Positions 7,550 to 13,692 of a stretch of 64,000 bases of DNA are shown here, piece after piece; position 1 is the first letter of the stretch; each line of letters begins with the position of its first letter. Below the pieces are notes generated by a model. It saw only the letters and a list, made by a program, of their open reading frames with translations, searched no databases and was not told where the DNA came from. The translations under genes were made by a program, and so were the position numbers. Source of the DNA: Flexithrix dorotheae DSM 6795 (GTDB lineage: Bacteria; Bacteroidota; Bacteroidia; Cytophagales; Flammeovirgaceae); assembly GCF_000379765.1 (NCBI RefSeq), contig NZ_KB903443.1, forward strand, positions 1 through 64,000, written 5' to 3'.

Positions 7550-7816
7550 TCAGATAGTTGCTCTGTTTCCCAAGTCCAATTCATTGGCAATTTTCAAAAT
7601 CTTATTTCTAACTTTTTTTACCAGTTTTCTATAATCATGTTTTGAAATCTCTCCGCTTCTGTTCTCTCCTTCCAAATGATAATATTCTCCGCTTACCTTC
7701 AGGACCTGATTATAATGAGAAATGTCATTGTCTTTAAGGTAAATTTCCAGCTCATCAATTGCAGGTTCAATATAATCAATAGCCAATAATTTTTGAATTT
7801 TTGCTGAGATCTTCAT
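7550..7816 (-). CDS. Small effector-associated-domain (EAD11-like) protein
   Basis: An 88-residue acidic/basic all-helical protein without signal peptide. The central stretch YNQVLKVSGEYYHLE (about 35-49), then SGEISKHDYRKLVKKVR (about 55-71) and a helical end, follow the pattern I know from effector-associated domain 11: a helix with 'NQ..LLSSRYN.LE', a 'G.IS..EY....NRI' turn and a final helix. EADs are small adaptor modules that link sensors to effectors (caspase-like peptidases, NACHT/STAND ATPases) in bacterial conflict and signalling systems. Here no effector is adjacent; neighbours are a glycosyltransferase and a TonB receptor. The assignment rests on pattern memory. Confidence 0.55.
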   Translation of the reverse strand: MKISAKIQKLLAIDYIEPAIDELEIYLKDNDISHYNQVLKVSGEYYHLEGENRSGEISKHDYRKLVKKVRNKILKIANELDLGNRATI

Positions 7817-8016: not shown

Positions 8017-8048
8017 AAAATAAATTTAGACAAGTCTAAATTTATTTT
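8017..8048. promoter_or_regulatory. 32-bp near-gapless palindrome, candidate DtxR/MntR-type operator
   Basis: Two 15-bp arms match perfectly around a 2-bp centre (8032-8033); the core is TTTAGAC-AA-GTCTAAA (8025-8040). It lies 82 bp upstream of the TonB receptor start, in promoter position. The core resembles TTTAGnC..GnCTAAA boxes bound by DtxR/MntR-family metal repressors. The regulator gene is not in the window, so the metal (iron or manganese) is inference. Confidence 0.6.
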
Positions 8049-8129
8049 TTTGCATACCAAATTAAATTTAACTAGATTTGAAAATAAATTATACAACAAG
8101 ACTAAAAACATCATTCCATAAAACTAATT

Positions 8130-10427
8130 ATGAAACCTTTTCTACTCATTTTTTGCTGGATTTTTACTTTGTTATCAGTTCATAGTCAGGACAAGGGAAG
8201 TATTTCAGGTAAAATAATTTTTAATGATGAACCAGTTGAGTTTATTAATATTGGTCTATTAGGCACCAATCTTGGAAGCACATCAGATTCTTTGGGACAT
8301 TTCCACATTAAAAATATTCCGGTTGGAAGCTACCAAATAATTGCTTCGGGTATAGGCTATGAAACTTTTAAAGAAAATATTGAGATACAATCCAATTTGA
8401 CAACGCTTAACATCAACCTGAAAGAAGGAGAAACTACTTTAGCGGAGGTGGTTGTTTCAGGGACGATGAAGGAAGTTTCCAAACTGGAGTCTCCAGTACC
8501 CATTGAAGTGTATACACCACTTTATTTTCAGAAAAACCCCACTCCCGCCCTTTTCGAAGCCCTTCAGATTGTAAACGGTGTAAGACCGCAGGTAAACTGT
8601 TCGGTTTGTAATACAGGGGATATTCATATTAATGGGATGGAAGGGCCATATACCATGATTTTGATCGATGGGATGCCCATCGTAAGCGGACTTTCCACGG
8701 TTTATGGTTTAAATGGTATTCCCAATAGTATGGTAGAGAGAATTGAAGTGGTAAAAGGCCCTGCATCCACCTTGTATGGCTCGGAAGCAGTAGGAGGATT
8801 AATTAATGTGATTACCAAAGTACCATCGAAAGCACCAGTTTTTTCGGTGGACGTATTTGGTACAAGCTGGGCAGAAATTAATACTGACCTTGCTGAAAAG
8901 TTTAATGTAGGGAAAAGTACTTCCATGGTTGGGGTGAATTATTTTGATTACAGCAATCCCATAGATAATAATGGAGACGGATTCACCGACCTGACCAATA
9001 CCAAAAGGATATCAGTATTCAACAAATGGAGTTTTGGAAGGAAATCGAATAAACTGGCCACTTTAGCCGGAAGATATGTTTATGAGGACCGTTGGGGAGG
9101 GGAAATGGACTGGACTCCGGCATATCGTGGTGGTGATGAAATTTATGGAGAATCGATTTATACGGAAAGATTTGAATTAATTGGGAATTATCAACTTCCC
9201 ATTAATACTGAAAATGTAATGTTAAGTGTTTCACTCAATTCCCATTATCAAAATTCGGTATATGGGGATGTTCCTTATTTGGCTGATCAGAAAATAGCCT
9301 TTGGGCAATTAATCTGGGACAAAGAAATTGGAAATCACGATCTTCTTTTTGGAGCAGCAATGCGATATACTTATTACGATGATAATACGCCAGCTACCAG
9401 AATTGGAGAGGAAACTAATGGAACAAATAATCCGGAAAACACATATTTACCTGGGATTTTTGTTCAGGATGAAATTACCCTTAGTCCTGTAACAAAGCTC
9501 TTATTGGGAATGCGGTATGACCATAACTCTCAACATGGCAATATTTTCACTCCAAGATTTAACTTAAAATGGGCCCCAAACCGAAACAATATTTTCAGGT
9601 TCAGTGGTGGAACAGGCTACAGGGTAGTTAATCTGTTCACAGAAGATCATGCAGCTACTACTGGAACCAGGAATGTTATCATTGCTGAAAAACTTAGCCC
9701 GGAGCAATCCATTAATTTAAATCTCAACTATCAGAAATTTGTCCATATTGGGAGCAGTATTTTATCCCTGGATGCAAGCCTGTTCCACACCAGGTTTTTC
9801 AATAAAATTATTCCAGATTACGATAGCAACCCCTCCCAAATCAATTATTCCAACCTGGACGGCTATGCAATTTCCCAGGGATTTACCTTAAACACAGATT
9901 TGTCATTTAGTTTCCCCTTGGTGATTAATGCCGGTATCACTTTGCTTGATGTTTATGCCATGGAGGAAGATGAAGATACAGGAGACTTGACCAGAGAGGA
10001 GCAATATCTTACAGAAAAAGCTTCTGGTACATGGACTGTTTCCTATACTTTCGATAAATCCAAAATATCCCTGGACTATACCGGGAATGTTTATGGCCCA
10101 ATGAAGTTACCACTAATTTCTGAATGGGATGAAAGAGCACCTTATTCTCCTACTTATTCTATTCAGAATATCAAAATAAGCAAGGCTTTTAAAAATGGAT
10201 TGACTATATATGGAGGGGTGAAAAATTTACTCAACTTTACTCCTGCCAAAAATTCCATTGCACGCCCATGGGATCCGTTTGACAGACAAGTGGAGTATGA
10301 TGGTGAAGGAAATGTATTACGCACTCCGGATAATCCACAAGCCTTGTTTTTTGATCCGGCATATGTTTATACCTCCAATCAGGGAATCAGAGGGTTTATT
10401 GGCCTGAATTATATTTTTGGCCATTAA
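8130..10427 (+). CDS. TonB-dependent outer-membrane receptor
   Basis: A 765-residue gated channel for energy-dependent uptake across the outer membrane. A signal peptide (1-19, ending VHSQ) is followed by a carboxypeptidase-regulatory-like beta domain (about 22-100), typical of Bacteroidota receptors. The plug (about 115-235) carries ILIDGMPI, VERIEVVKGPAS and LYGSEAVGGLINVI. The beta barrel fills the rest and ends in GIRGFIGLNYIFGH, with an aromatic near the C-terminus. An unusual CSVC pair sits in the plug at about 158-161, just before the HINGMEGPY segment. The upstream palindrome and the following thioredoxin-like gene suggest a metal-regulated unit; the cargo is unknown. Confidence 0.88.
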   Translation: MKPFLLIFCWIFTLLSVHSQDKGSISGKIIFNDEPVEFINIGLLGTNLGSTSDSLGHFHIKNIPVGSYQIIASGIGYETFKENIEIQSNLTTLNINLKEGETTLAEVVVSGTMKEVSKLESPVPIEVYTPLYFQKNPTPALFEALQIVNGVRPQVNCSVCNTGDIHINGMEGPYTMILIDGMPIVSGLSTVYGLNGIPNSMVERIEVVKGPASTLYGSEAVGGLINVITKVPSKAPVFSVDVFGTSWAEINTDLAEKFNVGKSTSMVGVNYFDYSNPIDNNGDGFTDLTNTKRISVFNKWSFGRKSNKLATLAGRYVYEDRWGGEMDWTPAYRGGDEIYGESIYTERFELIGNYQLPINTENVMLSVSLNSHYQNSVYGDVPYLADQKIAFGQLIWDKEIGNHDLLFGAAMRYTYYDDNTPATRIGEETNGTNNPENTYLPGIFVQDEITLSPVTKLLLGMRYDHNSQHGNIFTPRFNLKWAPNRNNIFRFSGGTGYRVVNLFTEDHAATTGTRNVIIAEKLSPEQSINLNLNYQKFVHIGSSILSLDASLFHTRFFNKIIPDYDSNPSQINYSNLDGYAISQGFTLNTDLSFSFPLVINAGITLLDVYAMEEDEDTGDLTREEQYLTEKASGTWTVSYTFDKSKISLDYTGNVYGPMKLPLISEWDERAPYSPTYSIQNIKISKAFKNGLTIYGGVKNLLNFTPAKNSIARPWDPFDRQVEYDGEGNVLRTPDNPQALFFDPAYVYTSNQGIRGFIGLNYIFGH

Positions 10428-10452
10428 TCTTCACCCCGAAAAAAAATTTGCC

Positions 10453-10938
10453 ATGCGTCCTAATATTCACTTCTATATCATTGCACTAATTTTCACAGTC
10501 GGCCAGGGTTTCGGGCAATCCTCCGAAATTTCCTGGCTGAATTTTGACCAACTGGAAGATACTATGCGCTCCCATCCCCAAAAAGTGATTATTAAGATAG
10601 AAACTGACTGGTGTAAATACTGCAAACTGATGGATAAAACCACTTTTAAAGATCCTGAAATTGTAGCAGTTTTAAATGCAAATTATTATTTGGTGAAGCT
10701 GGATGCAGAGTCCAAATCAGACATTAAATTCCTTGGACGAAACTATACTTTTAAACCCAGTGGAAAAAACAACGGTATTCATGAATTGGCTGAAGTTTTG
10801 GGAAGATCCGGAGATGGTTTGGAATACCCTACAATAACCTTTTTAAGCGAAAGATTCCAACCCATAATTAATAAGAATGGTTACCTCAATAAAAAAGACT
10901 TTCTCCGGCTCATTACCACTGTAAAAGACAATTTTTAA
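10453..10938 (+). CDS. Periplasmic thioredoxin-like protein
   Basis: A 161-residue protein starting at ATG 10453, which opens directly with a signal peptide (MRPNIHFYII to GQGFGQ); an upstream TTG at 10417 would overlap the receptor gene and bury this signal. The thioredoxin fold shows the redox motif WCKYC (about 52-56), followed by the DUF255-like pattern of helix and LVKLDAES. A cis-proline-like EYPTITFLS lies near 128. It should reduce or rearrange disulfides in the periplasm. It begins 25 bp after the TonB receptor, so the two are probably co-transcribed; the CSVC pair in that receptor plug is a conceivable target. Confidence 0.8.
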   Translation: MRPNIHFYIIALIFTVGQGFGQSSEISWLNFDQLEDTMRSHPQKVIIKIETDWCKYCKLMDKTTFKDPEIVAVLNANYYLVKLDAESKSDIKFLGRNYTFKPSGKNNGIHELAEVLGRSGDGLEYPTITFLSERFQPIINKNGYLNKKDFLRLITTVKDNF

Positions 10939-11157: not shown

Positions 11158-13692
11158 ATGGAAAACATACTTTATTTGCTTTCAATTCCAGCTTTTGGAC
11201 TAATAGCAATTCTTTACGTTGTGATCAAATCCGGATGGATTTCCAAACAAAGTGCAGGAGACGAGAAAATGCAAAAGCTCGCTGACCACATTGCAGAGGG
11301 AGCCATGGCATTTTTAAAGGCAGAATGGAAAGTTCTGGCTTATTTTGTAATTATAGCCGGTATTTTACTGGCCTATTCAGGAACATTGGTGGAAACATCC
11401 CACCCCTCTATTGCACTCTCATTTGTGTTAGGCGCTGTATTCTCCGCATTTGCCGGATATATTGGGATGAACATCGCCACCAAATCGAATGTCCGAACAG
11501 CTGAAGCTGCCAAATCAAGTTTACCCAATGCCTTAAAAATCTCTTTTGCCGGAGGTTCTGTAATGGGAATGGGAGTTGCAGGTCTGGCTGTAATTGGACT
11601 TGGTTCATTGTTTATTCTCCTTTACTACGTATTCGTAATACAGACCGGAGGAGATGTGAATGGTGTTGAAATGGAAAAAACACTGGAAGTATTAGCAGGT
11701 TTTTCACTTGGTGCTGAATCGATTGCCTTATTTGCCAGAGTTGGTGGAGGTATTTATACAAAAGCAGCCGATGTGGGAGCTGACCTGGTAGGAAAGGTAG
11801 AAGCCGGAATTCCTGAAGATGATCCCAGAAACCCGGCAACGATTGCAGATAATGTTGGGGACAATGTAGGAGATGTTGCAGGTATGGGAGCCGACCTATT
11901 CGGTTCTTATGTTGCCACTGTTTTGGCAACCATGGTATTAGGCCGTGAAATTGTTTCTGATGATAATTTCGGAGGAATCGCTCCAATCATTGTACCTATG
12001 GTTATTGCCGGAATCGGTATAGTTTTCTCCATGATAGGTACCTGGATGGTGAAAATCAAAGACAATAACGGAGATGTACAAAAAGCTTTAAATATTGGAA
12101 ACTGGTTTTCGATTATTGCTACTGCAATCGTTTCAGTATTCGTGGTAGACTGGTTTTTACCTGATAACATGGTGCTAAGAGGATATGAATTCACCAAAAA
12201 TGGTGTAATGATTTCAGTAATCATTGGATTGGTAGTTGGAGCATTGATGTCAATCATTACCGAATATTATACAGCCATGGGAAAAAGACCGGTAAATTCC
12301 ATCATCAAGCAATCATCTACTGGTCATGCCACAAATATTATTGGCGGGCTGGCTATAGGAATGGAATCTACTGTACTTCCAATATTTGTTCTTGGAGCCG
12401 GTATTGTGCTTTCCTATTCTTTTGCCGGATTATATGGCGTTTCTATCGCTGCTGCAGCCATGATGGCTACCACTGCCATGCAATTGGCAATTGATGCATT
12501 CGGTCCAATTGCTGATAATGCTGGTGGTATTGCCGAAATGAGTGGGCTGGACAAAGAAGTTAGGGAGAGAACAGATATTCTAGATGCGGTTGGAAATACT
12601 ACTGCAGCGATTGGTAAAGGATTCGCCATTGCCTCTGCTGCATTAACTGCTCTTGCACTTTTTGCAGCATTCGTGGGAATTGCCGGAATTGACAGCATTG
12701 ATATTTATAAAGCTCCAGTACTTGCAGGTTTGTTCCTTGGAGGGATGATTCCTTTTATTTTCTCTTCATTGGCAATTTCTGCAGTTGGTAGAGCAGCCAT
12801 GTCCATGGTGGAAGAGGTAAGAAGGCAATTCAAGGAAATTCCCGGTATTATGGAATATAAAGCCGAACCCGAATACGAAAAATGTGTGGATATTTCCACC
12901 AAGGCTTCTATTAAGGAAATGATGGCACCTGGATTAATTGCATTACTAGTGCCTCTATTGGTAGGATTTGGCTTTTACGGAGTTTTTGAAAAAACCCCTT
13001 CAGCCGAAATTCTTGGAGGAGTTTTAGCAGGCGTAACGGTTTCAGGTGTGTTGATGGCACTTTTCCAATCTAATGCGGGTGGGGCTTGGGATAATGCTAA
13101 AAAATCATTTGAGAAAGGTGTTGACATCAACGGAAAGATGGAATACAAAGGGTCTGATGCGCATAAATCTTCCGTTACGGGTGATACTGTTGGTGATCCC
13201 TTTAAAGATACTTCCGGACCATCTATGAACATTTTGATTAAATTAATGTCAATTGTTTCATTGGTGATTGCACCACATATTGCCGTTGATCATGCCGGGC
13301 ATGGCACTTCACAGCATGAGAAAATAAAGATTGAACAAAAGGTAAAAGTTACAAATACCGAAACAAGCCAAAATACAATTGTAGATTATGTTCCTGAAGG
13401 ACTGATAGACATTATTTTCACCGAAAAAACTGAAGGTTTAACCAAAGCACATGAAGACTGGCTGAAAGGGCTTGCTATCAAATTAGGCATGGATGAGTCT
13501 GTAAAAATTGTGCTTGAGGCTGAAACTAATGAAAAGCTTAAATTTGATCTAAAAGAAAGAGAGCAATTGATTAAAGACTTTTTTGCCAAAGAAGGAGTAA
13601 GTGAAGACCGAATAGCCCTGAATATGGAAATTCTTGAAGGCGGAAACCATAGCAATATCACGAGAGACGTTCAAATAAAAATCGTGCAATAA
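11158..13692 (+). CDS. hppA: Membrane-bound ion-translocating pyrophosphatase
   Basis: The 844-residue integral membrane enzyme hydrolyses pyrophosphate and pumps H+ or Na+ out of the cytoplasm. The catalytic signature is clear: [19 protein letters not shown] (about 202-220), [19 protein letters not shown] and the later [16 protein letters not shown]. Around 478 the motif [10 protein letters not shown] carries alanine where potassium-independent enzymes have lysine, so by family knowledge this is a potassium-dependent type. About 15 hydrophobic helices fill residues 1-715. Residues about 712-844 form a soluble, charged extension beyond the usual end. It is monocistronic, with its own -7 box and terminator. 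I cannot decide between H+ and Na+ transport by eye. Confidence 0.93.

Follow-up and report, generated by a model that had tools for sequence, protein, structure and literature searches.

Positions 8017 to 10938 of the window, by which we mean the whole 64,000-nucleotide stretch of Flexithrix dorotheae DSM 6795 analysed here (contig C14; the genome comprises 9.54 Mb on 101 contigs), hold an inverted repeat, a gene for a TonB-dependent receptor (TBDR) and a gene for a thioredoxin-like protein (Table 1). We propose, with a probability of about 0.6, that they form a manganese-starvation operon, in which MntR would control a manganese receptor bearing a thiol pair in its plug and served by a thioredoxin partner. 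Metalloregulated outer-membrane uptake, most likely of manganese, appears well supported by the comparisons described below, and redox gating of this candidate uptake by the plug cysteines is plausible.

The exact core of the repeat, TTTAGACNNGTCTAAA, was found at only two places in the whole genome. One is the window; the other, at C25:431508, precedes an ATP-binding cassette (ABC) operon encoding a ZnuA-family (ZnuA/MntC-type) substrate-binding protein (SBP), an ATPase, a permease with a C-terminal DtxR domain and a second permease. A free-standing DtxR/MntR gene (L019:7213-7929) is present on contig C36, and its product matches PF01325 (helix-turn-helix), PF02742 (metal binding and dimerisation) and FeoA over the cut-offs. 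The original prediction had placed the receptor under metalloregulation and looked to further copies of the site near metal genes and to a regulator of the DtxR/MntR type; both were located, and together they support the proposal. A relaxed pattern, TTTAGRYNNRYCTAAA, occurs at four places in the genome, two of them beyond the exact cores: C69:66072, inside an open reading frame (ORF), and C1:343284, before a sensor-kinase-like gene. Both were set aside as probable chance matches. With two mismatches allowed, the core matches at many places.

Among the manganese ligands of BsMntR, the C36 regulator keeps His77, Glu99, Glu102 and His103. Its relatives were compared in 46 ungapped alignment rows, in which our own regulator is counted twice: position 99 is Glu in 45 of the 46 rows, Glu102 and His103 are invariant, and position 8 is occupied by Asn in 37, Asp in 9 and Lys in 1. 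According to the report on the Porphyromonas gingivalis regulator, Glu at position 99 marks the manganese-type choice, versus Cys in DtxR (PMC4805248). The best NCBIfam match of the C36 protein is an MntR model, below its cut-off. The regulator residues are mostly MntR-like and favour manganese, iron being less likely.

The site also recurs in relatives. Eighty named loci, picked partly by the peptide DIHINGME that adjoins the CxxC motif, were searched within 250 nt before the receptor, and TTAGRYNNRYCTAA was present without mismatch in 56 and with at most one mismatch in 73. The corresponding frequencies were 0.06% and 1.25% in 1600 shuffles, and 0.42% and 1.1% in 717 other segments of the same loci. 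The Bacteroidota promoter consensus is TTG / TAnnTTTG, and the TAnnTTTG element lay 10–45 nt 3′ of the site centre in 49 of the 73 loci, versus 2.6% of shuffles. In 28 open-frame loci (L103–L131), which are among the best-scoring of a phylum sample, the site was exact in 9 and within one mismatch in 21. Among 17 relatives chosen by the ABC permease, an exact site precedes the operon, the permease or a preceding mntR in eight (L152–L155, L159, L161, L162, L165), and a one-mismatch site was seen in three (L158, L160, L164).

Metal genes recur as neighbours of these receptors. With flanks of up to 5 kb for L020–L099 and about 1.5 kb for the rest, a DtxR/MntR gene was detected in 42 of 128 receptor loci; it is divergent from the receptor within 500 nt in 30 of 121 loci of the window's own receptor clade (group A). 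Some loci are repeats: L102 is the window's own, L112 equals L039, and L106 equals L038. Leaving out L102 and L112 gives 41/126 for the DtxR gene, 29/120 for the divergent arrangement and 35/126 for the thioredoxin discussed below. A ZIP cluster was found in 10 and an Nramp cluster in 5 of the 80 loci, and for each cluster the identity of one member was confirmed. An ABC ATPase gene stands after the receptor in L073 and L094, and the gene run of L073 reads mntR, SBP, receptor, ATPase, permease-DtxR, permease. A permease-DtxR fusion (L018:6379-7674, C25:433378-434673) also stands in the operon behind the second site of our genome, which is laid out like chlamydial ytgABCD; matches to the fusion at E≤1e-40 occur in 20 of the 38 genomes searched, our own included.

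In the window itself, the inverted repeat is the sole place with an arm of at least 11 nt and a loop of at most 4 nt, and the longest arm across 60 dinucleotide shuffles of the window was 12 nt, versus the 15 observed. The repeat ends 81 bp before the receptor start, and a single base separates it from the TTG of the −33 element. This layout of promoter and operator is the same in L020. In this nearest relative (L020/L216, receptor identity 89%) the 16-bp core is conserved together with the right arm, but the left arm is not; the functional operator unit is therefore probably about 16–18 bp. The 32-bp palindrome of the original prediction is real as a perfect repeat, but probably overstates the length of the functional site.

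The receptor matches PF07715 and PF00593 over the cut-offs, and its fold matches that of Cir (Z 32.9 over 535 residues, 3.0 Å). The solved receptors nearest in fold include Cir, Fiu, FyuA and BtuB, with Cir and Fiu ranked highest; these neighbours name no substrate. Substrate names offered by NCBIfam (siderophore, heme and B12 models) were rejected, all matches being far below the cut-off. The protein has three cysteines, at residues 9 (signal peptide), 157 and 160, and the CSVC motif does lie inside the Plug match, as had been predicted. Its conservation in orthologues, on which the prediction also depended, was borne out: both cysteines are kept in open frame in 79 of the 80 relatives and in all 122 aligned group-A receptors, and 93 of 121 group-A receptors have no other cysteine after residue 20. 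Over all receptor loci, the CxxC is in open frame in 122 of 128. The six others are L038 and L106, which are one gene with an in-frame stop (in L106 the CxxC is visible by tblastn despite the stop), and L185–L188, which at ≤28% identity and without CxxC were treated as receptors of other kinds and excluded from the group-A counts. In a survey of genomes the cysteines were present in 44 of 44, a less biased test because the first 80 loci had been chosen partly by DIHINGME near the motif.

Alignment with Cir places the CxxC immediately ahead of the I-x-I-N-G strand of the plug, in a segment that we take to be an outward-facing apical loop, as in FepA/BtuB-type receptors. CxxC is the usual redox-active spacing. 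A pair of thiols at the ligand site fits the predicted placing no worse than a gate does. We also considered whether the cysteines form a site like that of OprC or ZnuD, and did not adopt this reading; for a copper receptor of the OprC type, the CxxxM motif is absent, residues 161 and 164 being Asn and Asp, not Met. Further residues that could serve as metal ligands by type, and that vary little or not at all, include D279, D283, D287, H372, D464, H469, E505 and H507, among which H372, H469, E505 and H507 are kept in at least 98% of the 122 receptors. Early in the barrel, a DxNxDxFxD segment (residues 279–287, positions 8964-8990), conserved in relatives, is like a calcium-binding loop.

A thioredoxin-like gene follows the receptor, as predicted: its product exceeds the cut-offs of three Pfam families, carries WCKYC and looks secreted, with an N-terminal hydrophobic segment that by eye resembles a signal peptide. 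Its start is better placed at ATG 10453, 25 nt after the receptor stop, than at the listed TTG 10417, which overlaps the receptor; the ATG fits the starts of relatives better. Among solved structures the closest are C-terminal domains of DsbD, with weak similarity (E about 5e-4). Across relatives, a thioredoxin gene lies within 700 nt downstream of the receptor in 36 of 128 loci, the window's own included, so that it is not an obligatory operon partner. The Chitinophaga of L079 and that of L084 are examples of relatives that have both receptor and thioredoxin. In 4 of the 17 relatives chosen by permease (L161, L162, L164, L165) a thioredoxin gene instead follows the ABC operon.

Table 1. Features of the proposed operon (window positions).
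Feature	Position	Strand	Remarks
Perfect inverted repeat AAAATAAATTTAGAC-AA-GTCTAAATTTATTTT	8017-8048	none	arms 15 nt, 100% complementary, AA centre; proposed MntR operator
16-bp core TTTAGACAAGTCTAAA of the inverted repeat	8025-8040		
Bacteroidota-type promoter	8050-8080	+	TTG 8050-8052, N20, TAGATTTG 8073-8080
TonB-dependent receptor	8130-10427	+	765 aa; CarboxypepD_reg, Plug and TonB barrel
Codons C157-S-V-C160	8598-8609	+	inside the Plug match, residues 118-223
Secreted-looking thioredoxin-fold protein	10453-10938	+	161 aa; Thioredox_DsbH, Thioredoxin_7 and Thioredoxin_2, all over cut-offs
Codons C-K-Y-C of the thioredoxin motif ETDWCKYCK	10612-10623	+	

From these data we infer the following course of events, in which repression, manganese as the substrate, the place and role of the cysteines and the client of the thioredoxin are all deduced. 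With ample manganese, Mn-loaded MntR encoded on C36 would bind the TTTAGACaaGTCTAAA operator, which adjoins the −33 element, and so block the promoter; when manganese is scarce, MntR would release it. The receptor would then import Mn2+ or a manganese chelate across the outer membrane with energy from TonB. Passage of manganese across the inner membrane would be the task of the ABC importer that the second operator controls. The plug cysteines, at the substrate-facing mouth of the plug, may act as a thiol/disulfide pair needed for capture or release of the ligand. The secreted thioredoxin-like protein would keep them as, or return them to, the dithiol in the periplasm, before or during movement of the plug.

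Two clades of such receptors were distinguished in Bacteroidota. Group A, with CSVC here and mostly CNVC in relatives, is present in 44 of 198 genomes (47 matches at E≤1e-60, minus G064, G158 and G180, which show ≤31% identity and no CxxC). Group B, mainly CQNC or CQTC, occurs in 19 of the 198 at E≤1e-80. None of the 198 genomes was seen to carry the two together (Fisher p 0.009, without correction for kinship), in a survey that scored five candidates per genome with these differing cut-offs, by which double carriers could be missed. In the 17 relatives chosen by permease, where up to 62 candidates were scored, 6 have a group-A receptor, 8 a group-B receptor (one partial, its plug not seen) and 3 neither. 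The CxxC was found in all 21 group-B loci (two as CNNC), a DtxR gene in 7, a thioredoxin gene in 5 and the site within one mismatch in only 4. Searches with the plug alone gave Prevotella and Parabacteroides receptors with NCQNC, the motif being as in the published Stenotrophomonas maltophilia receptor (PMC13217887). L155:162-2495 and L193–L215 are receptors with CQNC or CQTC plugs, some of them beside MntR and thioredoxin genes, and in G201 a CQTC receptor gene and the ABC operon are transcribed divergently, and two exact sites lie between them. A plasmid search with the whole receptor gave only weak matches among the 30 listed, the best at 31% identity.

Several known systems resemble the proposed operon. 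The MnoT-type TonB-dependent manganese receptors of Bradyrhizobium and Burkholderia are reportedly manganese-regulated outer-membrane receptors, as proposed here; we know of no plug CxxC or thioredoxin partner for them. The closest likeness is to orf2357-orf2358 of S. maltophilia Sm18, published in May 2026 as an MntR-regulated TBDR-pTFP module with a CQNC plug (PMC13217887). The locus is reported to be active only without manganese and iron and to be derepressed without mntR, the module is described as restricted in distribution, and the idea of a plug reductase already appears in the discussion; the main text of that report contains no match to 'bacteroid'. Both systems have a receptor with a plug CxxC, a thioredoxin-fold gene directly downstream, an upstream site (an MntR-box there, a proposed MntR operator here), and MntR and manganese importer genes in the regulon (a predicted regulon here). 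The window receptor differs in carrying CSVC rather than CQNC and does not belong to the CQNC group (the S. maltophilia receptor being known here by its published motif); the importer is of the ABC type here, with ZIP or Nramp in some relatives, versus MntH there; and the thioredoxin motif is CKYC versus the CAPC signature of pTFP, the motifs alone being compared. By its predicted parts, the window operon is the same kind of system in a different variant.

Metal ligands in the plug are described in the accessible parts of two further reports. OprC uses C143 and M147, the CxxxM of the plug, plus an HxM of the barrel (PMC8610252), and ZnuD uses Asp, His and Glu, with D99 and H100 in a plug-apical loop (PMC4557270). 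Like the receptor proposed here, both are TonB receptors of metal ions with plug ligands, and in those parts a thioredoxin partner is mentioned for neither. No cysteine motif was found in the main text of a 2026 paper on copper TBDRs. PgMntR of P. gingivalis is, like our regulator, a manganese regulator of the DtxR family with FeoA from Bacteroidota; it has twin FeoA domains and Cys108 (PMC4805248), whereas ours has a single FeoA domain and carries Glu instead of that Cys. A literature search of open-licence PMC text found no paper on a Bacteroidota MntR-TBDR system. Within the scope of these searches, several findings appear to be new: the CxVC clade and how widely it occurs in Bacteroidota, the operator, the connection with ABC, ZIP and Nramp importers, and the fact that the two clades seem to exclude each other.

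A number of observations weigh against the manganese operon as proposed. No evident metal gene adjoins either of the two additional matches to the relaxed pattern, and the three Nramp loci of the genome, searched for the operator, showed no site with at most one mismatch. The C36 regulator has Asn at the place of Asp8 and Lys at that of Glu11 of BsMntR, so that its metal need not be manganese. ZnuA-family SBPs carry manganese, zinc or iron, and the best NCBIfam match of the SBP in our ABC operon is a zinc model (AztC), below the cut-off. The permease-DtxR fusion of that operon is a second candidate regulator. In 14 distant group-A loci (L171–L184) the site was never exact and within one mismatch only once; TTAGTC..GACTAA in four and TTAGCC..GACTAA in two were seen instead. 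Six of the 17 permease loci (L156, L157, L163, L166–L168) have no site before the operon. Mn(II) seldom takes Cys ligands, and no CxxC geometry was drawn from the AlphaFold model (31 sequences; mean pLDDT 77.4, pTM 0.75), its pLDDT being below 50 at residues 155–173. Finally, 92 of the 128 receptor loci have no thioredoxin gene directly downstream, and 9 of the 36 downstream matches are less than 30% identical.

The absence of a thioredoxin gene next to most receptors also speaks for a simpler role of the cysteines, as a plain metal-ligand pair or a structural disulfide, the thioredoxin serving other clients such as the SBP or general envelope repair, with no redox gating. This is a possibility to be taken seriously, at somewhat less than even odds. 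A ligand role has precedents in Cys143 and M147 of OprC and in D99 and H100 of ZnuD (PMC8610252, PMC4557270). Furthermore, one of the four relatives with a thioredoxin gene after the ABC operon (G227) has neither CxxC receptor. However, receptor and thioredoxin are found paired again in distant lineages and within each of the two receptor clades, and the spacing of the cysteines is, as said, the one usual for redox activity. It is unlikely that the same operon and operator sense and carry iron, by IdeR/DtxR-like or joint iron and manganese control, with a receptor for a ferric or other chelate. P. gingivalis MntR is described as binding both metals (PMC4805248), the S. maltophilia reporter as active only under joint limitation (PMC13217887), and Cir and Fiu head the fold neighbours, next to the far sub-threshold siderophore, heme and B12 matches; against this, the place of DtxR Cys102 holds Glu, not Cys, in 45 of 46 regulators, and the receptors neighbour MntR, Nramp/MntH, ZIP and ZnuA/MntC-type ABC genes.

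That the operator belongs to the membrane-fused DtxR-like permease-repressor, released by cleavage as in chlamydial YtgC/YtgR, rather than to the free-standing MntR, seems quite improbable. The fusion gene does lie in the operon behind the second exact operator, and the Chlamydia fusion is reported to be cleaved and to bind its own promoter (PMC5599777); yet the genes divergent from the receptor across the phylum encode free-standing DtxR/MntR proteins with the site between, and the fused part gave only a weak MntR match and no match to a Pfam DNA-binding domain. A chance neighbourhood of palindrome and genes is scarcely credible: AT-rich flanks do lengthen the palindrome, and the left arm is lost in the nearest relative, but the site, its distance and its neighbours recur across the phylum far above the controls.

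A bolder version of the manganese operon, which we regard as a long shot, is a phylum-wide thiol-driven importer. The plug dithiol would capture oxidised or chelated manganese (e.g. a Mn(III)-ligand) at the surface and, on reducing and releasing the metal, turn into a disulfide. A dedicated thioredoxin would re-reduce it from the periplasm in each cycle, so that TonB-dependent uptake would itself be a redox cycle. The CxVC and CQ[NT]C clades would then be two versions of one importer, and this would account for the lack of any surveyed genome in which both were seen. TonB-dependent manganese uptake is known from few bacteria. If the window receptor does take manganese, such receptors would be widespread among Bacteroidota, with clade A in 44 and the CQNC clade in 19 of the 198 genomes sampled, and would offer a clean test system for disulfide control of the plug in an outer-membrane transporter. 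The comparison further supplies a candidate operator motif for the MntR regulon of Bacteroidota and would link the S. maltophilia module to a larger set.

The operon is flanked upstream by a lone ORF of 88 aa on the opposite strand (7550-7816, −) with a match to the Pfam effector-associated domain 11 (EAD11). Downstream lies a membrane H+-pyrophosphatase gene (11158-13692, +), in whose product the Pfam match ends at residue 704 of 844, with a C-terminal extension of about 140 residues that has no Pfam match.

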